DNA of 16,637 nt from Oscillospiraceae bacterium (GTDB lineage: Bacteria > Bacillota > Clostridia > Oscillospirales > Oscillospiraceae), in the NCBI GenBank assembly GCA_017405545.1, contig JAFRAF010000239.1, positions 1 through 16,637 on the forward strand, read 5' to 3'. The notes beneath the pieces are model-generated. The model saw only the letters and a list, made by a program, of their open reading frames with translations. It searched no databases and was not told where the DNA came from. Made by a program: the position numbers and the translations under genes. Of this stretch, positions 1 to 15,413 are shown one piece after another (the first letter of the stretch is position 1; each line of letters opens with the position of its first letter).

Positions 1-1892
1 AGCTTTTCAACTATAAACTGCACGTTTATCTCGTCCAGGCTCCTGGCCGAGATACTCACAGTGCTGGCCGTCTCCGGGAAAACCACAAAGGACGCCCTGA
101 CGCCGGAGATATTCAGCAGCTCATCCGCCGCCTGGGCGGCGATTATCCTGCTCTGCATGGTCTCCGGCACGGAGATGGCTATGCCCGCCTTGTAGAGCTT
201 TGCTTTCTGTATGATGCCGTAGCGGGTCTTGGCCGTCTCCATATCGCTCTGGAGCATGCGCTTTACGTCCGCCGTGTCGGCCCCGGCCCTTCTCAGGAAG
301 GCCGCCGCCTCAAAGGTGCGGCTGCCGGTGCGCATGGCAAAGCTCTTTGTATCCAGTATGATGCCGGCCATAAGGGCCTCGGCCTCCACCTTCTGTATGT
401 CCTCGGTCTCCAGCATGTACTGCAGGAGCTCCGCCACCAGCTCGCAGGTGGATGAGGCGTAGGGCTCATGGAAGCTCAGAGCCGTATTCTGTATGAATGA
501 GGCCGCCCGTCTGTGGTGGTCGATTATGGCCACCCGGTTGCAGGACTCAAGGAGACTGTTGGACTCCACCTGTTCGGGCCTGTTGGTATCCACCACTATG
601 AGCAGGCTCTGGCCGTCCGCCTCCAAAAGGGCGTCCTGGGGCGAAATGAAGGCCCCTGTATAATCCGCGGAGGTCAAGAGCCTGTCTATTAGGCTCTTTG
701 ACACCTGGGTGCTCATGTCTATGACGATCTTTGCCTTTTTGCCGCATTTTCTGGCCGCGCAGCACAGTCCGGCGGCTGCGCCCACGGCGTCCAGATCCGC
801 GTACTTGTGGCCCATGATGTATATCTTGGACGACTCGCTCATGAGCTCGCTCAGGGAGTTGGCCATGACTCTGGACTTCACCTTCGTGCGCTTTTCCAGC
901 TCGGAGGAGCGCCCGCCGAAGAAGTCGAAATTATACCTGTTCTTTATGACGGTCTGGTCTCCGCCACGGGACAGGGCCATGTCTATAGACAGAGAGGCGA
1001 ACTGATAGGCCTCCTCAAAGTTTCTGGCGTCCTTGCCTATGCCTATGCTCACCGTGGCCGGCACGCCACGGACGCTGACCTGACGCACGCTGTCCATCAG
1101 GGAGAACTTGTCGTCGATGAACTGCTGCAGGGCCCGTTCCTCGAAGATGAAGACATATCTGTCGCGGTCATATTTGCAGAGATAGCCGTCGCATATGGCG
1201 GTCCAGTCGCTGACCCTGTCGTCTATCTGGGACATGGTGAGGGACTTCTCTTTCTCCGATGTGTTCTTGAGCAGCTCCTCGTAGTTGTCTATCACTATCA
1301 GGGCGAACACGGGGCGTGAATCCATGTACTCCGCCTCCAGAGTGGAGTAATAGGTCACGTCCATCCAGTATGTGGTTGCGATCCAGGCGGGGTCGCTGCC
1401 CTTCAGTCCCGTGCGCACCAGGCTGCCGTAGATGCGGAAGAGCTTGTCATCCAGCTCCACCAGCTCCGGGCACTCGCTCTTCCCCTCGGCGAGCCACTTG
1501 GTGTTGAAGTCCGGCACAAGGTCCGTGATGTCCTTCTCAAACGTGCGGTCGCCCGCGCCGGTGAGCTTGCCGAAGGCCTCGTTGGCCCGGATGATCTTGT
1601 TGTCCTCGACCCCGAACACCACCATGGGCATGGGGAAATTCGCCAGGGAATTCGTGGCAGCGGTGTCCAGATTGTATATCACCGACTCAAGCTCCCGGAC
1701 TATCTCCCGGCTGCGCCTGCGGTTTTGTATGCGGGAGTAGATGAACAGGATTATGATCACGCAGCCCTGTGCGATGACCAGCTCTTTTACGTATCTGCCG
1801 TCGAGGAAATAGGTGGCCGCTGTAAATATCAGGAGTATGATAAAAAACGATCTGGTATTCAGTTCAAAAAGATGTTTGATCTTTTTATTCAA
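1..1892 (-). CDS. gdpP: GdpP, cyclic-di-AMP phosphodiesterase (partial; C-terminus beyond the left edge)
   Basis: 630 codons are present and the frame is open to the edge. Known role: this membrane-anchored family hydrolyses the second messenger c-di-AMP to pApA, affecting potassium and wall homeostasis. Seen in order: two membrane segments near residues 14-31 and 36-53; a PAS-like region about 70-165; a degenerate GGDEF-like region about 190-320; a DHH domain with GHKYADLD at 361-368, VVDTNRP near 433 and IDHH at 457-460. The last visible residues (SARSLDEINVQF) begin the DHHA1 subdomain, so the expected glycine-rich GGGH motif is probably just outside. The start is TTG at 1892: a TAA lies six codons upstream in frame, TTG is the only usable start between, and GAGGGGG sits 7 nt before it. 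It is divergent from the exported protein gene at 2163. Confidence 0.95.
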   Translation of the reverse strand, partial: MNKKIKHLFELNTRSFFIILLIFTAATYFLDGRYVKELVIAQGCVIIILFIYSRIQNRRRSREIVRELESVIYNLDTAATNSLANFPMPMVVFGVEDNKIIRANEAFGKLTGAGDRTFEKDITDLVPDFNTKWLAEGKSECPELVELDDKLFRIYGSLVRTGLKGSDPAWIATTYWMDVTYYSTLEAEYMDSRPVFALIVIDNYEELLKNTSEKEKSLTMSQIDDRVSDWTAICDGYLCKYDRDRYVFIFEERALQQFIDDKFSLMDSVRQVSVRGVPATVSIGIGKDARNFEEAYQFASLSIDMALSRGGDQTVIKNRYNFDFFGGRSSELEKRTKVKSRVMANSLSELMSESSKIYIMGHKYADLDAVGAAAGLCCAARKCGKKAKIVIDMSTQVSKSLIDRLLTSADYTGAFISPQDALLEADGQSLLIVVDTNRPEQVESNSLLESCNRVAIIDHHRRAASFIQNTALSFHEPYASSTCELVAELLQYMLETEDIQKVEAEALMAGIILDTKSFAMRTGSRTFEAAAFLRRAGADTADVKRMLQSDMETAKTRYGIIQKAKLYKAGIAISVPETMQSRIIAAQAADELLNISGVRASFVVFPETASTVSISARSLDEINVQFIVEK

Positions 1893-3965: not shown

Positions 3966-5816
3966 TTATTCTGCATTTCCAATATATTCGCTGCTGTTGA
4001 GGAAATTGACGAAGGAATCATAGCTTCTGAAGAACTTATGCGTTCCCTCTGTGCTGAGTCCGTAGTAGAAATAATTGGTATCCTCAGGCCACAAAGCAGC
4101 TTTTATTGAGGCCGCGCCCGGGTTGGATATGGGCCCCGGCGTCAGGCCCTTGTACATATAGGTGTTGTACGGATCATCCATGGAGGTGGACACTTCCTGT
4201 CCGGTCCTGGACGCCGCGTAGTACAGGCAGGCGTCGATCTGGAGATATCCGGCGGTCTTTGCGCCGGGGTTGTTCAGTCTGTTGAAGATAACAGACGAAA
4301 TGGTGGCGCGTTCGCTGTCGCTTCCGGCCTCTTTTTCTATCATGGAGGCCACTGTGATGATCTGTTTCATGGTCAGGCCGCGGTTTGAAGCGCGTTCTGT
4401 GTACTCCTCGGGCCACTTCGACTCAAAGTTGGACAGGAATTTCCCCAGTACTCTGGAAGCCGTGTCATTCACATAGAATTTATAGGTATCCGGGAAGAGG
4501 TAGCCCTCCAGCCGGTACTTATCCCCAATATCGTCCGTGGGCAGGAAATCGAATTCCTCGAAGTTGTAATTGGCGGCCGCATCCCACAGTTCGTCGCTGC
4601 TGCAGACCTTGTTCTCCTCCAGCAGCTCTATTATCTGGGCCAGCGTATAGCCCTCGGGCACGGTGACCGAGACCTCCACTCTCGTGCCGCCGGTGGAGGT
4701 CATGCCGTTTACCAGCGCTCTGTAGTCATAGGAGCCGTCCAGCACATAGGTGCCGCCGGAGACCTTGTCCTCCGCGTGGGACATGCCCGCGTAGAACACA
4801 AAGAGCTTTTTATAGCGTATCAGGTCCGCGTCGAAAAGGGCGTCGGCCATCTCCTCGGCGGTGGCCTTGTCGGGTATGGTGACCTCGGCCTCGCCGGGCG
4901 ATCTCCCCAGGGCCAGCACGTCGCTGGCGGCGAGCCAGAGTATGGCTGCCAGAGCCGCGCTGACACAGAGCACAAAGATGAAGTACAGAAGTCCGCCGAC
5001 TATGCCGGTGGTCCTGGCCTTGTGCCTCACCACGGGGCGGAAATCCTCATCCAGATCCTCTTCATCGGACTCTTCGGCCTTTTTATTCTTCTTCTCGCGC
5101 TTCTTGAGCTTTTCGGCGAACTTCGGGCCCGCCTCCTCGGCGGCCTCGGAGTCACCGTCGTATCCGTCTTCGTCGCCGGCGTACTCCATGTCCTCTTCAT
5201 CGGACTCATAATCGTAGTCCCCGGCATTTTCCCCGGCGTCCTCGGCGGGGATCGCCCTGTCAAGGCCGGGCGCGGGGGCAAGGGGAACCTCCTCAAACGC
5301 CCCTGCCTCGGGGACAAAGCGGGTAGCGTCGGCGGCGTCAGCCGGAGCTTCGTTCTCCATGGCTATCTGGCGCTTGTGCTCCTCCATTATCTCATCAAAG
5401 GTGGGCAGGTCTATTCCGCCCGGCAGGATGGGCGCGCTTTCATCCTCGGGCGCATCCTCATACGCGCTCTCCTCGGCCACGTCCGCATGCCGGGCCCGGC
5501 GGGCGGCTTTTGCGGCCCGTTTTTCGGCCATGCGCCTCTCCCTGCGGGTCAGCGCGGCCTCAACGGCGGAGTCATCCTCCGCGTAGGCGGCGTCCGGCGC
5601 GTCAGCGTCGGCAAAGGCGCTCTGCTCCGTGACGTCCCTCTCACCGTTCGTGCCCGGTACGGAGTCCAGATCCACAAAGCTGCCCACGTTCGGATGGCGG
5701 GTCTTGCTGTACTCCTCCCAGATGTCGCTGCTGACATCGGCGGAGCCGCTGTTTTCCGTCTCCACATTGAGTATATCGTCATGAAATTCTTTCCAGAAGC
5801 TGTTTTTCTTTGGCAT
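3966..5816 (-). CDS. mltG: MltG-type endolytic murein transglycosylase with long acidic cytoplasmic extension
   Basis: 616 residues against roughly 340-380 for typical MltG. Residues 1-270 are hydrophilic and low-complexity: Asp/Glu/Ala-rich, with a basic Arg/Lys/Ala patch (91-108) and a Lys-rich stretch (232-248). One membrane span lies at about 271-297. The extracytoplasmic part has a LysM-like subdomain (about 385-415, VTVPEGYTLAQI) and the YceG/MltG catalytic domain: LEGYLFPDTY (437-446), SMIEKEAGSDSERA (491-504) with the catalytic Glu, NRLNNPG, and LTPGPISNPG (558-567). Known role: cleaves nascent glycan strands to set chain length. The start ATG at 5816 is the first possible one, because a TAG lies two codons upstream. 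The best ribosome site, GGGAGG, is 15 nt away, which is long. It heads a transcript with the GntR gene. Confidence 0.93.
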   Translation of the reverse strand: MPKKNSFWKEFHDDILNVETENSGSADVSSDIWEEYSKTRHPNVGSFVDLDSVPGTNGERDVTEQSAFADADAPDAAYAEDDSAVEAALTRRERRMAEKRAAKAARRARHADVAEESAYEDAPEDESAPILPGGIDLPTFDEIMEEHKRQIAMENEAPADAADATRFVPEAGAFEEVPLAPAPGLDRAIPAEDAGENAGDYDYESDEEDMEYAGDEDGYDGDSEAAEEAGPKFAEKLKKREKKNKKAEESDEEDLDEDFRPVVRHKARTTGIVGGLLYFIFVLCVSAALAAILWLAASDVLALGRSPGEAEVTIPDKATAEEMADALFDADLIRYKKLFVFYAGMSHAEDKVSGGTYVLDGSYDYRALVNGMTSTGGTRVEVSVTVPEGYTLAQIIELLEENKVCSSDELWDAAANYNFEEFDFLPTDDIGDKYRLEGYLFPDTYKFYVNDTASRVLGKFLSNFESKWPEEYTERASNRGLTMKQIITVASMIEKEAGSDSERATISSVIFNRLNNPGAKTAGYLQIDACLYYAASRTGQEVSTSMDDPYNTYMYKGLTPGPISNPGAASIKAALWPEDTNYFYYGLSTEGTHKFFRSYDSFVNFLNSSEYIGNAE

Positions 5817-7978: not shown

Positions 7979-8572
7979 ATGTTTCTTGACGCAATGGGCA
8001 AAGCATGTCCCATGCCCGTTATCATGGCAAAGAAAGAGCTTGACGCCGGATGCGGTGATCTTATAATAGCTGTGGACAACCCCACGGCGGTACAGAACCT
8101 CACAAGGCTGGCAAACGACAAGGGCCTGAGCGTGGAGACCGAACAGAACGGCGGCGAATACCGCGTCCACATCGTCGGCGACCCCTCTGCCGCTCCGGCT
8201 GAGGATGCTCCCGCTCCCGCCGCCCCCAAGGGCAACGGCTACGCGGTGTTCTTCGGCAAGGACCATGTGGGCGAGGGCGAAGGCGAGCTGGGCTACAATC
8301 TGGCCAAGATGGCCATCTACACCCTCAGCCAGTCCGACGAGCTGCCCGCCTCCATGCTCTTCATGAACAGCGGCGTAAAGCTGGTCACCGGGGACGAGCC
8401 CCAGATCATCGACAGCCTCAACGATATGATCGCTCAGGGCGTGCAGGTCCTGGTATGCGGCACCTGCCTGAATTTCTACGGCATCGCCGATCAGCTCAAG
8501 GTGGGCGTGGTCAGCAACATGTACGACATTCTGGGCAAAATGCAGAGCGCCGACAAGGTCATCACTCTGTAA
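7979..8572 (+). CDS. yedF: YedF, TusA/DsrE-like selenium-metabolism-associated protein
   Basis: 197 residues in two domains. Residues 1-68 are a TusA/SirA-like fold with the family CPMP motif: Cys10 in KACPMPVIMAKKEL. A Pro/Ala linker follows (68-84). Residues 85-197 are a DsrE/F-like domain ending in LVCGTCLNFYGI (Cys160, Cys163) and VGVVSNMYDIL. This two-domain arrangement is the sulfurtransferase-like YedF family, which is known from comparative genomics to co-occur with selenium donor (SelD) systems, although its biochemical role is not settled. The start has an ideal AGGAGG 8 nt upstream. No selD or other selenium gene is visible in the window, and no UGA-recoded gene was noticed. The promoter is flanked by a repeat array, suggesting specific regulation. 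Confidence 0.93.
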   Translation: MFLDAMGKACPMPVIMAKKELDAGCGDLIIAVDNPTAVQNLTRLANDKGLSVETEQNGGEYRVHIVGDPSAAPAEDAPAPAAPKGNGYAVFFGKDHVGEGEGELGYNLAKMAIYTLSQSDELPASMLFMNSGVKLVTGDEPQIIDSLNDMIAQGVQVLVCGTCLNFYGIADQLKVGVVSNMYDILGKMQSADKVITL

Positions 8573-8813: not shown

Positions 8814-9119
8814 ATGAAATTTGAATGTGCCTTTATCTACGTGGGCCCCGACTGCGATCCGGCCAAGGACCGAGCCGTGATTGAGGGCGAGAAAGTCAAC
8901 ATGAACGTCATCGGCTGCACCAACTACGCCCAGGCCGAGGAGATCGCCAAGGAAATGGCGGCCAAGGGCTGCTCCGCGGTGGAGCTCTGCGCCGGCTTCG
9001 GCAACGACGGCATAGCGCGCATCAAGAAGGCCGTGGGCCCCGGCGTGGCTGTCGGCGCTGTGAAATTCGATTTCCACCCCGCCTTCGGCTTCAAGAGCGG
9101 CGACGAGCTCTTCGGATAA
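8814..9119 (+). CDS. DUF6506-like small protein
   Basis: 101 residues. The start ATG at 8814 has GGGAGG ending 8 nt upstream. The pattern resembles what I recall as DUF6506: an opening strand (MKFECAFIYVG), DPAKDRAVIE, NVIGCTNYAQAEEIAKEMAAKGCSAVELCAGFG (34-63), then VGAVKFDF. The centre suggests an alpha/beta fold with a conserved ELCxGFG loop at 57-63. There are five Cys (5, 14, 35, 53, 59). No catalytic function is known. It follows yedF on the same strand after a terminator-like stem, with its own promoter, so it is a neighbour and not clearly an operon partner. Confidence 0.8.
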   Translation: MKFECAFIYVGPDCDPAKDRAVIEGEKVNMNVIGCTNYAQAEEIAKEMAAKGCSAVELCAGFGNDGIARIKKAVGPGVAVGAVKFDFHPAFGFKSGDELFG

Positions 9120-10364: not shown

Positions 10365-11078
10365 TCAGTGCTTGCCCAGATAGGCGGCCTTCACGGAGTC
10401 GTCGGCCAGCAGCTGGCTGCCGGGCCCGCTCATGGTGATGCGGCCCGTCTCCATGACGTAGCCCGTGTGGGCGGTTTTAAGGGCCATGTTGGCGTTCTGC
10501 TCGATCAGCAGGATGGTGACGCCCTGCTTGTTTATCTCCCTTATGATGTCGAATATGCCCCTTACTATGATGGGGGCGAGGCCCAGGCTGGGCTCGTCCA
10601 TCATGATGACCTTGGGGCGGCTCATAAGAGCCCGGCCTACGGCCAGCATCTGCTGCTCGCCGCCGGAGAGCGTGCCGCCCGCCTGCCAGGAGCGCTCCTT
10701 TAAGCGGGGGAACAGGTCATAGACCCAGTTCAAGTCGTCGGTGATATTGTCGTTTCGGAGGTAAGCGCCCATTTTCAGGTTCTCCAGCACGGTCAGGTCC
10801 GGGAAAATGCGCCGTCCCTCGGGCACCATGGTGATGCCCTTTTTCACTATGTTGGTGGGATTTTCGCCGGTGATGTCCTCACCCTGCAGGATGATGCTGC
10901 CTCCGGCCGGCTTTACAAGTCCGGCGATGGTGCGCAGGGTGCTGCTCTTTCCCGCTCCGTTGGCGCCGATAAGGGTGACTATGTCCCCCTCGTTCACGTC
11001 AAAGGAGATGCCCTTGACGGCCTCTATGCCTCCGTAATTGACCTTAAGGTCCTTGATGCTGAGAATAGTATTACTCAT
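10365..11078 (-). CDS. livF: Branched-chain amino acid-type ABC transporter ATPase LivF
   Basis: 237 residues. One of two ATPases powering a high-affinity hydrophobic or branched-chain amino acid (or amide/urea) importer. Walker A GANGAGKS (38-45), MVPEGRRIFPDLTVLENL (the LivF-type Q-loop region), signature LSGGEQQ (137-143), Walker B VIMMDEPSLGL (157-167) and LLIEQNANMALK, where Gln stands at the H-loop position as is usual in LivF. It ends with the family YLGKH-like tail. Its ATG overlaps the natural stop of livG by 8 nt (ATGAGTAA, 11078-11071), implying translational coupling; the amber codon in livG could therefore reduce livF translation. It is the last gene of the operon, before the bidirectional terminator. 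Confidence 0.96.
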   Translation of the reverse strand: MSNTILSIKDLKVNYGGIEAVKGISFDVNEGDIVTLIGANGAGKSSTLRTIAGLVKPAGGSIILQGEDITGENPTNIVKKGITMVPEGRRIFPDLTVLENLKMGAYLRNDNITDDLNWVYDLFPRLKERSWQAGGTLSGGEQQMLAVGRALMSRPKVIMMDEPSLGLAPIIVRGIFDIIREINKQGVTILLIEQNANMALKTAHTGYVMETGRITMSGPGSQLLADDSVKAAYLGKH

Positions 11079-11253
11079 CCTCGACCACCCCCAGATACGC
11101 GTCTATAACGTGCGGATTCGCCTGTACCTCCTCAGGCGTGCCTGTGGCAATCAGCTTGCCGAAGTCTATGACGTAGATTCGGTCTGAGAACTGCATGACC
11201 AGGTCCAGATGGTGCTCTAGCATGAATATGGTCAGGTCGTACTCGTCCGTGAT
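11071..11253 (-). pseudogene. livG: C-terminal 60 codons of livG downstream of the in-frame amber codon
   Basis: Continuing in the same frame past TAG at 11256-11254 gives 60 codons before TAA at 11073-11071. They read as a well-preserved LivG end: ITDEYDLTIFMLEHHLDLVM contains the H-loop region, followed by QFSDRIYVIDFGKLIATG, TPEEVQANPHVIDAYLG and VVEDE. No further stop, frameshift or decay is visible. The stretch has no start codon with a ribosome site of its own, so it would only be made by readthrough or from an unmutated allele. Confidence 0.85.
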
Positions 11254-11955
11254 CTACACGATGAACTCGCCCAGCTCCTGGGTCTCCTGGGGGTTCATGC
11301 CCGCCGCCGGCTCGTCAAGGAGCAGAAGGGTGGGGTCGGTGGCCAGAGCTCTGGCTATCTCAAGGCGGCGCTGCAGGCCGTAGGGCAGGCTGGTGGCCAG
11401 CTCGTCCTTGAAGCGGGCGAGGCCCTGCTCCTCCAGAAGCGCCAGGGTCTCCTCACGCATGCGCCGCTCCTCCGCGGCGGAAATGCGCAGGGTGGCCGAG
11501 AACACGTTGTGCTTTGCCCGCACATGCTTGGCGGTCAGCACGTTGTCGAACACGGTCATGGACTTCCACAGACGGATGTTCTGGAAGGTCCTGGCTATGC
11601 CCAGTTGGGTTATCTTGTCCGGGGTGGGGCTGACGACGGTCTCGTGTATGTATTTCTCGGCGTTTTCGCCCTTGTAGCCCTTTTTCATTTTGCCGTTCGG
11701 CTTGTTGGCCACGATGACCTTGCCGTTGAAGCTTATGCGGCCGTTGGTGGGCTCGTAAACTCCGGTGATGCAGTTGAAGGCGGTGGTCTTTCCCGCGCCG
11801 TTGGGGCCGATAAGGGCCACTATCTCGCCCTTGTTGACCTCAAGGGACAGGTTGTTCACGGCCACGACTCCGCCGAACTGCATGGTCACATCCTCAAGGC
11901 GAAGGACATTGGGTGCGGTTTTCTCACTTGTTTTGGGTGTGTTGTTATCACTCAT
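11254..11955 (-). CDS. livG: Branched-chain amino acid-type ABC transporter ATPase LivG, interrupted by an amber stop
   Basis: 233 residues up to TAG at 11256-11254; 294 positions if that codon is read through. Walker A GPNGAGKTT (50-58), GIARTFQNIRLWKSMTVFDNV (119-139), signature-type LPYGLQRRLEIARAL (190-204), Walker B LLLLDEPAAGMNPQET (210-224). The frame stops after GEFIV, before the H-loop His and the LivG tail, which follow in frame. The truncated protein would be expected to have poor ATPase coupling. Residues about 80-117 hold an extra Lys-rich segment of some 25-30 residues relative to usual LivG. The start is ATG 11955, within ATGAGTGA overlapping the livM stop; GGGGGTG lies just upstream, and the GTG at 11964 is too close to that site. 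Confidence 0.9.
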   Translation of the reverse strand: MSDNNTPKTSEKTAPNVLRLEDVTMQFGGVVAVNNLSLEVNKGEIVALIGPNGAGKTTAFNCITGVYEPTNGRISFNGKVIVANKPNGKMKKGYKGENAEKYIHETVVSPTPDKITQLGIARTFQNIRLWKSMTVFDNVLTAKHVRAKHNVFSATLRISAAEERRMREETLALLEEQGLARFKDELATSLPYGLQRRLEIARALATDPTLLLLDEPAAGMNPQETQELGEFIV

Positions 11956-13186
11956 TTCCTTCACCCCCTTCCGCCGCAGCGGCAGCGGCGACAGCTTTTT
12001 TCGCTTTTCGCCGCTTTGCCCCGAATGGATCTTTCAGGAATCCTCCTATGCCCTTGAAGCTGATCTCCTTGTCGCCCATGATGCCCTTTGAGAAGAAGAG
12101 CACGATGACCATGATGACCACGGAGAAGACGACCTTGCGGAAGCCGTCGCGGAAGAAGGGCACCGGCACGATTCCGAAGAGGGAGCCGCTGTCCAGAAAA
12201 CGCAGCCACCACTCGTTGCAGGCGATGAACAGGAAGGAGGCTATGCAACTGCCCGAGATGGAGCCTATTCCGCCTATTACCACGATGAGCAGTATCTCAT
12301 AGGTCATGGCCGTCTTGAAGGCCATGGCCTGTATGGTGGTCTGGTACATGGCCAGCAGGGCACCGCCCGCTCCCGCGAAGAAGGAGCTGATTATGAAGGA
12401 CATCTGCTTGTGCTTGAACAGGTTGATGCCCATAGCCTCGGCCGCTATCTCGTCGTCGCGTATGGCCTTGAAGGCCCGGCCGTAGGAGGAGTTTATCAGC
12501 AGTATGATAAACAGTATACACAGCATGGCTATGAACACCGGGAAAATGCTGGTGAACTTTATCACGTTTCCGCCGATGTTGATGTTCATGTCGGTGAAGG
12601 CCGTGTATTTGCGCAACTGGTATGAGCCGTTGGTTATCTTGCCCAGCTTGTCCCACTGGAACACGGCGCGGATTATCTCCGCGAAGCCCAGGGTGGCTAT
12701 GGCCAGATAGTCGGATTTAAGTCTGAGTACCGGTATGCCTATCAGGGCGGCGAATATGCCCGCGATGATGCCGGCGATGATTATGCATATTATGGCGCCG
12801 AAGAAGCTGCCCGCGCTCTGCCCGATGACGCCCTGGAGCATCTCGGGTATGGAGAAATGTATGTTGGTGCCGCCGGAATACTGGTACACGGCCTCTCTGT
12901 ACTCATCGGGTATGCTGAGCATGGCGTACACATACGCGCCGATGAGCATGAAGCCCGCCTGACCCAGGCTGAACAGACCGGTGAAGCCGTTCAGCAGGTT
13001 CATGGACACGCAGACCAGCGCGAAGATGGAGCTCTTCTGCAGGACGGGTATCAGCATGGTGGTAAAGGAATTGCGGGGCAGATAGTTGTCAAGAAGAAAC
13101 AGCAGCACATAAAATGCCACAAGGCAGATGATCGCTATAAAATTCTCCGTCTTCTTTTCGGAGCGTGGTTTCAAAGTTTTTTCCAT
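11948..13186 (-). CDS. livM: Branched-chain amino acid-type ABC transporter permease LivM
   Basis: 412 residues. One of two membrane subunits of the importer. Many membrane spans are visible, beginning with NFIAIICLVAFYVLLFLL (about 15-32). Family motifs: NLLNGFTGLFSLGQAGFMLIGAYVYA, GIPVLRLKSDYLAIATLGFAEI, and the EAA-type cytoplasmic loop GRAFKAIRDDEIAAEAMGIN that contacts the ATPases, followed by FFAGAGGALLAM and IGGIGSISGS. The C-terminus is unusual: after the last span comes a basic then Ala-rich tail (KRRKAKKA, eight or so Ala, GGEGNE). The start ATG 13186 has GAGGTG about 6 nt upstream and follows the livH stop by 10 nt; an earlier frame extension to 13222 lies inside livH. The stop overlaps the livG start. 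Confidence 0.95.
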   Translation of the reverse strand: MEKTLKPRSEKKTENFIAIICLVAFYVLLFLLDNYLPRNSFTTMLIPVLQKSSIFALVCVSMNLLNGFTGLFSLGQAGFMLIGAYVYAMLSIPDEYREAVYQYSGGTNIHFSIPEMLQGVIGQSAGSFFGAIICIIIAGIIAGIFAALIGIPVLRLKSDYLAIATLGFAEIIRAVFQWDKLGKITNGSYQLRKYTAFTDMNINIGGNVIKFTSIFPVFIAMLCILFIILLINSSYGRAFKAIRDDEIAAEAMGINLFKHKQMSFIISSFFAGAGGALLAMYQTTIQAMAFKTAMTYEILLIVVIGGIGSISGSCIASFLFIACNEWWLRFLDSGSLFGIVPVPFFRDGFRKVVFSVVIMVIVLFFSKGIMGDKEISFKGIGGFLKDPFGAKRRKAKKAVAAAAAAEGGEGNE

Positions 13187-13196
13187 AGCCTTCACC

Positions 13197-14084
13197 TCAT
13201 ACCTTATCCGTGGCCTTCTCACCGAATATACCGGTGGGCTTGACCATGAGAATGACTATCAGCAGAGCGAACGAGAAGGCGTCGGAAAAAGTGGTCCAGC
13301 CGAGTCCCTTTATAATGTTCTCGCAGATACCGATGATGAACGCGCCGATCACCGCGCCGGGGATGGAGCCTATGCCGCCGAACACCGCGGCGACGAAGGC
13401 CTTGAGTCCGGGCATGGCGCCGGAGGTCGGTATGACCGAGGAGTAGTTGGTAAAGTACAGCAGCGAACCCACGGCCGCAAGGAAGCAGCCGATGACGAAG
13501 GTGGCGCTTATGACCATGTCTATCTTTATGCCCATAAGCTGGCTCGCCTCAAAGTCCTTGGAGACCGCGCGCATAGCCATGCCGATCTTGGTGTATTTCA
13601 GGAGAAGAACAAGTATTATTACCAGCACAAGGGTGAGTATCGGCGTAACTATGGTGACCATTTTTGTGGTGGCTCCCCATATCGTCACAGACTCGGAGAG
13701 GAAGGGGATGGAGGGGTATACCTGGGGCAGACCGCCGGTGAAGTACAGGGCGCAGTTCTGCAGCAGGTAGGATACGCCGATGGCGCTTATCATTACCGAC
13801 ATGCGGGGGGCGGAACGCAGGGGCCTGTATGCCGCGCGCTCAATGAGAAAGCCCAGCACAACGGTCGCAACAAGCACCAGCGGGATGGATATGTACATGG
13901 GCATGGCCGTGGTGGCGTATATCATCACAAGACCCGCTACCATGAAAACATCGCCATGGGCGAAGTTTATAAGTCGCAACACGCCGTAAACCATGGTGTA
14001 TCCTATGGCGATCAGCGCGTACTGACCGCCCACGGATATACCGTTGAGCAAATACGCCATGTTTGTATGCAAAAATTCTATCAT
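13197..14084 (-). CDS. livH: Branched-chain amino acid-type ABC transporter permease LivH
   Basis: 295 residues, typical. It partners LivM to form the translocation channel. Motifs read: YLLNGISVGGQYALIAIGYTMVYGVLRLINFAHGDVFM near the N-terminus, a very characteristic LivH block; ERAAYRPLRSAPRMSVMISAIGVSYLLQN; the cytoplasmic coupling loop KIGMAMRAVSKDFEASQLMGI; and GLKAFVAAVFGGIGSIPGAVIGAFIIG. About eight hydrophobic segments. The start ATG 14084 has GAGGAG about 9 nt upstream. It follows the receptor gene by 108 nt, a gap with a stem-loop but no U-tract, so it is expected to be transcribed with it at a lower level. Confidence 0.96.
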   Translation of the reverse strand: MIEFLHTNMAYLLNGISVGGQYALIAIGYTMVYGVLRLINFAHGDVFMVAGLVMIYATTAMPMYISIPLVLVATVVLGFLIERAAYRPLRSAPRMSVMISAIGVSYLLQNCALYFTGGLPQVYPSIPFLSESVTIWGATTKMVTIVTPILTLVLVIILVLLLKYTKIGMAMRAVSKDFEASQLMGIKIDMVISATFVIGCFLAAVGSLLYFTNYSSVIPTSGAMPGLKAFVAAVFGGIGSIPGAVIGAFIIGICENIIKGLGWTTFSDAFSFALLIVILMVKPTGIFGEKATDKV

Positions 14085-14192: not shown

Positions 14193-15413
14193 TTAGAACT
14201 CGATGAGGTCATAGAAGACCAGAGTGCCGGACTCGGCGTCGAAGTTCTTGATGAAGGCCTGGTGACGGTCTGCGTCGCCGGTGTCGTTGAAGGCGATGTT
14301 GCCGGTTACGCCGTCATAGGTCACGCCGGGGAGAGCTTCCCAAACAGCGGCGGGATCGGTGCTGCCGGCGGCCTTGAGCGCCTCAAGAGCCACATAGTAG
14401 GCGTCGTAGCCGAGAACGGTGGTGGCAGCCAGCTCGTCGGTGCCGCCGTTGTTGGCCAGGTTGGTGGAGTCGCCGTTGATCCACTCGCGGATGCCGTCCT
14501 CGAACTCGGGGTTGCTTCCGTTGGCGTAGAAGGTGGAGCAGTAGACCTCGTTAGCGCCGTTAGCGGCTACGCAGGCGTCGGAGATAACACCGGAATCCCA
14601 GGTGTCGCCCGCTACGAGAGGAACAGTCAGACCCTGCGCGGCGGCCTGCTGGATGATCAGCTGTGCGTAACCGGTGGAGCAGGGAGCGAAGATGACCTCA
14701 GCGCCGGCGTTCTTGGCGTTGGTGAGGTAAGAGGTGAAGTCGGAGTTGCCCTCGGGGAACTGATCCTGGGTCACGGTCATGCCCAGATCCTCAGCCGCGG
14801 CCACGAAGTAGTTTACAAGGCCCTGGCCGTAGTCCTCACCCAGCATAGCCAGGCAGTAGACATTGTTGTAGCCCATGCTGTGTACCAGGTTGGCGTCGAT
14901 GGTGCCCTGGTCGGGATCGGTGAAGCAGATACGATAGTAAATCTCGTTGCCGTCGGTGACCAGCACGTTGGTGCAGGATACGCCGATGATGGGGATACCG
15001 GCAGCCTCAAAGGTGTCGGCAGCTGCCATGGACACGCCGGAGCCGTAGGAGCCCAGGCAGACGGAGCAGCCGGCGGAGATGAGCTTGTTGGCCGCGGAAA
15101 CAGCCTTGTCGTTAGCGGACTCGTTGTCAGCATAGACCAGCTCAACATTGTAGGTGGTGCCGCCGATGTCCACGGTGGGGGTCAGGGAGTTGGCATACTG
15201 CATGCCGAGAATCTCCTGCTTACCGCCGGAGCCGTTGTCACCGGACTGGGGCTCGTACACACCGATGTAAACGGTGTCGCCCGCGGGGGCGCCTGCAGAA
15301 TCGCCGCCCTCGGCAGTGTCGCCGCCGTTGTCGGCGGGAGCGGTGCCGCAGCCGCACAGGCCGAAGGCCATGAGCATCGCGAGCACGAGGATGAGTGCCA
15401 AGAATTTTTTCAC
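14193..15413 (-). CDS. livK: Extracellular solute-binding lipoprotein of a branched-chain amino acid-type ABC importer
   Basis: 406 residues. Captures ligand outside the membrane and delivers it to LivHM. The start is GTG at 15413 with AGGAGG 8 nt upstream. Residues 1-21 form a lipoprotein signal (MKKFLALILVLAMLMAFGLCG) with Cys22 as the probable lipidated residue, then a Gly/Asp/Ala-rich linker (23-46). The mature part is the periplasmic-binding fold type I: VYIGVYEPQSGDNGSGGKQEILGMQYA, VELVYADNESANDKAVSAANKLI, GSYGSGVSMAAADTFEAAGIPIIG, the DPDQG turn, and DFTSYLTNAKNAGAEVIFAPC. Ligand specificity (Leu/Ile/Val, amides, urea or other) cannot be read from sequence. It heads the livHMGF operon. 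Confidence 0.94.
   Translation of the reverse strand: MKKFLALILVLAMLMAFGLCGCGTAPADNGGDTAEGGDSAGAPAGDTVYIGVYEPQSGDNGSGGKQEILGMQYANSLTPTVDIGGTTYNVELVYADNESANDKAVSAANKLISAGCSVCLGSYGSGVSMAAADTFEAAGIPIIGVSCTNVLVTDGNEIYYRICFTDPDQGTIDANLVHSMGYNNVYCLAMLGEDYGQGLVNYFVAAAEDLGMTVTQDQFPEGNSDFTSYLTNAKNAGAEVIFAPCSTGYAQLIIQQAAAQGLTVPLVAGDTWDSGVISDACVAANGANEVYCSTFYANGSNPEFEDGIREWINGDSTNLANNGGTDELAATTVLGYDAYYVALEALKAAGSTDPAAVWEALPGVTYDGVTGNIAFNDTGDADRHQAFIKNFDAESGTLVFYDLIEF

Follow-up and report, generated by a model that had tools for sequence, protein, structure and literature searches.

An in-frame TAG in livG of a draft Oscillospiraceae genome: probable consensus error, or else a nonsense mutation, with little sign of recoding

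LivG is the ATPase of the branched-chain amino-acid ABC importer and combines an ABC core (PF00005) with a C-terminal domain (PF12399). The livG gene described here is like other members of the family in its operon setting and C-terminal domain, but differs from them by a TAG at codon 237 and by a score under the curated cut-off. Specifically, the best NCBIfam model for the whole frame is LivG (NF008449/PRK11300), with 278.6 bits against a curated cut-off of 362 bits. Bacterial pseudogenes with a single nonsense codon are similar in that one ordinary stop interrupts a frame kept on both sides, a likeness read from the assembled consensus base alone. Consensus errors of metagenome-type drafts offer another parallel, as otherwise well-kept genes of this assembly show isolated stops, departures that cluster, and a frameshift that is compensated; livG itself is likened to them by way of these other genes. 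Pyrrolysine decoding of UAG also involves in-frame UAG codons with coding sequence behind them in several genes. Different from that system, neither PylS, a CTA-anticodon tRNA, nor MttB was found here, TAG is a common gene end, and the interrupted sites share no residue. The portions of the literature available to our search hold nothing on this gene.

The window, by which we mean the whole analysed stretch of 16,637 nucleotides, forms contig C1 of a 374-contig draft, which totals 1,782,791 bases and is 68.6% complete. The fragmentation and completeness suggest that the genome is metagenome-derived. A wrongly binned contig was considered and rejected, as the codon usage of the window ranks 21st among the 57 contigs in which 1000 or more codons were called. 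The CTA on the plus strand at 11254-11256 reads as TAG on the minus strand. The start of livG on that strand is at about 11964, which leaves 236 codons ahead of the stop (Table 1). Behind it come 60 open codons, closed by a TAA (11073-11071) that falls within the ATGAGTAA overlap of livG and livF. An earlier note, made from the letters of the window, had claimed both the TAG within the LivG frame and the in-frame tail ending in the livF overlap, and both are borne out. The ABC core lies before the stop and the BCA_ABC_TP_C domain after it, the 60-residue tail matching PF12399 by itself. The coding score of the 20 codons behind this stop is the highest among 453 stops in 81 contigs; hence, the open tail is not due to chance. 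Per codon, the score is 0.37 for the tail and 0.45 for the head, with a mean of 0.28 for 60-codon stretches. The interruption of livG by a TAG with a coding-like tail is confirmed. The neighbouring genes of the operon are open frames, and we take the two permeases at 11948-13222 and 13197-14084 to be LivM and LivH, respectively. Among named records, the closest livF is 77% identical, in a collection that may omit records very close to the window.

Table 1. Features of the liv operon in the window and of the other interrupted genes in the assembly. Positions without a handle are those of the window.
Feature	Location	Strand	Evidence or remark
livG upstream part, 236 codons and TAG; ABC ATPase core	11254..11964	-	PF00005, residues 36-220, E 1.4e-30
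In-frame TAG, livG codon 237	11254..11256	-	Sense codon at 108/108 other aligned loci
livG tail, 60 codons and TAA; H-loop region and LivG C-terminal domain	11071..11253	-	PF12399, E 1e-13
livG codons 249-253	11206..11220	-	Both livG departures from invariant columns (85 in all) lie here
livF, open frame	10365..11078	-	ATG at 11078-11076 overlaps livG end
Permease, open frame from furthest GTG start	11948..13222	-	PF02653, E 4e-45
Permease, open frame	13197..14084	-	PF02653, E 5.6e-41
Substrate-binding protein (livK/livJ type), open frame	14193..15413	-	PF13458, E 3.5e-37
feoA-feoB frame cut by TAG	L179:2-2191, G000:C27	-	
5'-nucleotidase cut by TAG	L194:1518-3248, G000:C201	+	Compensated frameshift upstream
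SpoIIE-like protein cut by TAG	L162:5996-7441	-	
Nitroreductase cut by TAG	L169:15611-16345	+	
hisIE cut by TAA	L212:3149-3799	-	

The comparison across relatives that the earlier note had proposed gives a sense codon at the livG site in every other aligned locus. Among these 108 loci, the residue is Lys in 28, Arg in 21, Gln in 13, Glu in 12, and Phe in 10, with others making up the rest; Tyr does not occur. The alignment left out 10 of 119 loci, nine from the genome itself plus L028. Gln had been thought to fit the position, and the two closest relatives, at 81% and 76% identity, do carry it. Across the whole set, however, the site varies, and both Lys and Arg are more frequent. A TGA in the relative L090 was rejected as a parallel, as it lies near the N-terminal edge of the alignment (query position 13); for 19 of the 27 near relatives, the alignment begins no earlier than that position. 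Two distant ABC ATPase matches in other genomes (G056:C67:29595-30326 and G035:C201:138-824) have one inner TAG each as listed.

Stop-codon use was tallied in the window plus 80 contigs, amounting to 511,367 bases with 24,226 N, with genes called by a codon-usage script. This sample is non-random and consists, aside from the window, of C2-C13, C20, 47 contigs picked for their matches (ABC, tRNA, release factor, or PylS-like), and 20 tenth contigs between C30 and C230. Within the window, 15 gene ends (nine TGA and six TAA, never TAG) had been claimed. The six TAA stand, that of livG counted, whereas the true ends number 14 with eight TGA. The ninth TGA end, given by the scripted caller, belongs to a gene at 807-1319 (+) that is probably spurious because it is antisense to the gene at 3-1892 (-). 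The absence of TAG holds for the window only, TAG being common in the rest of the sampled contigs: the 458 called genes end in 182 TGA, 172 TAA, and 104 TAG, the last number including livG and the later-proven interruptions that lie in the same 81 contigs. Called genes of at least 200 residues give 127 TGA, 123 TAA, and 69 TAG. This tally, which had been suggested on a genome-wide scale, speaks against recoding in the 81 sampled contigs. The lack of any other TAG end in the window (0/14, p = 0.025) is a point in favour of recoding; TAG ends are likewise absent from the sampled contigs L193 (0/13) and L205 (0/10). With the probably spurious gene counted, the stop usage of the window differs marginally from that of the sample (p = 0.047). 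A window of 16 kb is too small for inferring stop-codon use.

TAG was found to be followed directly by a different gene in three cases (L172, L187, and L168). The gene pairs are a Mur ligase and a methionine gamma-lyase-like protein, a GntR regulator and an ABC ATPase, and a permease and a second complete permease. TAG therefore truly ends genes there. The second SpoIIE match of the genome was inspected as a further interruption and rejected, its TAG proving to be the true end of the gene. RF1 is present, scoring 473.2 bits against a cut-off of 423.25 with its gene start lost at a contig end, and RF2 is present as well. The genome search gave 25 tRNA matches above the cut-off; ARAGORN reads a CTA anticodon in none of them, and a 26th match, partial and cut by a contig end, has the anticodon GTG (His) as judged by eye. 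When ARAGORN was run directly on the 81 contigs, it likewise reported 25 tRNAs, again without a CTA anticodon; tRNA-Pyl could escape such a scan. The best PylS score in this 68.6% complete genome is 19.7 bits against a cut-off of 178.15. Over that cut-off, PylS was found in none of the 101 family genomes, 66 of which have a completeness of 90% or more and a contamination of 5% or less, and in one of 14 control genomes; matches to the model at E <= 0.001 occur in 73 of the 101 and 13 of the 14, respectively. The MttB model gave no match in the search. Hence the pylS gene and amber suppressor tRNA that the earlier note had thought worth searching for did not turn up in the incomplete genome.

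Six interrupted genes including livG were found in 121 contigs, five by TAG and one, hisIE, by TAA. As the scans were not exhaustive, this is a lower bound of at least five besides livG. A coding-like continuation was seen behind 22 of the 453 stops in the 81 contigs (seven TAG, eight TAA, and seven TGA), with that of livG being the strongest, and each was judged by Pfam matches on both sides, reading of the flanks, or relatives. Four of the seven TAG stops cut a gene, namely livG, feoB, a 5'-nucleotidase gene, and a gene for a SpoIIE-like protein. None of the 15 TAA and TGA stops looked like a cut gene; they face neighbouring genes or antisense-looking frames. The second scan covered all 121 contigs (697,896 bases including 55,464 N) and added the nitroreductase and hisIE, but missed the feoB, nucleotidase, and SpoIIE-like cases that the first scan of 81 contigs had flagged. 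The 40 later contigs are C14-C19, C21, C24-C26, C28, C29, C31-C37, and C39, the match-bearing C174, C176, C188, C233, C347, and C361, and the tenth contigs from C240 to C370, of which C310 also matched. In feoB, the PF02421 profile reaches position 24 before the stop and resumes at position 28 after it, and the gene is a single uninterrupted frame in the ten closest relatives. Relatives' matches cross the nucleotidase site without a stop, 19 of 19 cut-out relatives span the SpoIIE-like site, and 14 of 15 nitroreductase matches in other genomes are stop-free. The hisIE cut was judged from the sequence ahead of the stop and from a Pfam match that opens, at profile position 17, just behind it. 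Internal stops are absent from all 49 PF00005 and all 21 PF00528 matches, a count that is blind to stops outside the matched stretch. Possible further interruptions with coding-like flanks are a TAG ahead of an LRR protein (L192:1304-1306, +) and a TGA past a tautomerase-like protein (L156:398-400, +).

Taken by itself, the predominance of TAG among the interruptions counts in favour of recoding: in the 81 contigs, 4 of 103 TAG stops are interruptions versus 0 of 350 other stops (p = 0.0026), although the later count stands at five TAG and one TAA. We calculated what single base changes would do to the codons of this genome. TAG makes up 55% of the nonsense outcomes when every change has the same weight and 73% when transitions alone are allowed, and at least five TAG among six interruptions then have p = 0.16 and p = 0.49, respectively. 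Thus, codon usage alone is enough to explain the TAG excess. The residues of relatives differ from site to site. The feoB site has Tyr in all ten close relatives and His in 14, Tyr in 13, Ser in one, and Phe in one of 29 relatives. At the nucleotidase site, 22 relatives have Val (5), Phe (5), Ile (4), Arg (2), Lys (2), and one each of Met, Glu, Leu, and Tyr, while the 19 relatives at the SpoIIE-like site have Glu (4), Pro (4), Ser (3), Lys (2), and six others, with neither Phe nor Tyr. Phe is the sole residue common to the livG, feoB, and nucleotidase sites, and it never occurs at the SpoIIE-like one. As no residue fits all four compared sites, a single reassigned meaning of TAG is unsupported.

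We then inspected conserved columns around the interruptions. In feoB, 289 columns are invariant among ten close relatives, and this genome departs from 16 of them. Of the 11 invariant columns within codons 150-163, 6 depart (p = 4e-6; 4e-5 if the stop is left out). These departures include the P-loop threonine, which is identical in 29 of 29 relatives. Such a local pattern would not be expected from drift of a dead gene. The nucleotidase shows, as read by eye, a conserved stretch ahead of the site that is in a different frame, after which the original frame returns. Judged from these patterns, the feoB and nucleotidase interruptions are likely local sequence errors. The livG gene has two departures in 85 invariant columns, at codons 249 and 253, which are 12 and 16 codons past the stop. 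That both fall within 16 codons of it has p = 0.02, for a range picked after seeing them, and that both fall in the tail has p = 0.048. The neighbours have 0 of 77 (livF), 1 of 75 (livM), and 1 of 58 (livH) invariant columns departing; livK was excluded from this comparison, having no column invariant in enough relatives. Across 109 other loci, codon 249 is Ile or Val in 109 and codon 253 is Met or Val in 107. Since the two livG changes are conservative, they could also fit an early relaxation of constraint following a real stop.

On this evidence, we lean towards the view that the livG TAG is a local consensus error and that livG is normal in the living strain. The fragmented draft would carry short runs of wrong bases; such a run inside a gene would create a stop which, given the codon usage of this genome, would usually be TAG, and the livG stop would share its origin with those of feoB and the nucleotidase. 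An error is favoured over a mutation because other interrupted genes in the assembly bear error signs, namely the feoB cluster and the nucleotidase frameshift, among five further interrupted genes. The surroundings of the livG stop count against it, being much cleaner than those of feoB, with two conservative residues and no frameshift. The stop-free PF00005 and PF00528 matches, within the stretches matched, also count against it, and a decaying population could likewise hold several real nonsense mutations. The earlier note had fallen back on a recent mutation or a sequence error; both are kept here, and the evidence leans to the error through the feoB and nucleotidase signs.

A real nonsense mutation is a plausible second choice, to which we give appreciable but lesser credence. 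UAG would then terminate a LivG of 236 residues that keeps the nucleotide-binding core and lacks the H-loop region and the C-terminal domain. By the known ABC mechanism, the importer should then fail; translation of livF may also drop, as ribosomes would halt 60 codons early. TAG serving as a normal stop in the presence of RF1, the sense codons of all aligned homologues, and the two tail departures, which could mark early relaxed constraint, agree with a mutation. So does the next-best match of the same genome, which among the matches listed is only 30% identical, in an incomplete assembly. The error signs at the other interruptions argue against it, and aside from the p = 0.048 for the tail, further tests for relaxed constraint on livG are weak (p = 0.12, 0.13, and 0.42). 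The livG stop is ordinary under the error and the mutation readings alike.

Partial readthrough of UAG, by which some full-length LivG would be made, is very unlikely. The tail is in frame and coding-like, as such readthrough would have it, but no other locus has a stop at the site and RF1 is present. An RNA readthrough element behind the TAG was rejected, since the fold there is ordinary (z = -0.98, with 34 of 200 shuffles equally folded). About as doubtful is a variant in which the third of the genome missing from the assembly encodes a tRNA that makes UAG leaky or suppressed, TAG then both ending genes and being tolerated inside at least five. Such an ambiguity of UAG in a bacterium would, if true, be of genuine interest; the aligned residues speak against it. 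Recoding of TAG by pyrrolysine, a suppressor tRNA, or a reassigned code, which the earlier note had raised, is scarcely credible and unsupported, as the TAG-free window ends, the excess of TAG interruptions, and the incompleteness of the assembly are set against true TAG gene ends, the codon-usage prediction, the differing residues, RF1, and a search without PylS, MttB, or a CTA tRNA. Single stops in this assembly should not be taken as evidence of broken pathways or of an unusual code.

Elsewhere in the window, the gene at 7979-8572 (+) encodes YedF, a sulfurtransferase-like selenium metabolism protein (TIGR03527, 180.8 bits, over the cut-off). Between yedF and the gene of a Cof-type HAD hydrolase, positions 8814-9119 (+) encode a 101-residue protein with no NCBIfam match at E <= 0.001. 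The gene at 3966-5816 (-) encodes an MltG-type transglycosylase, whose match begins only at residue 277, after a long acidic N-terminal part.
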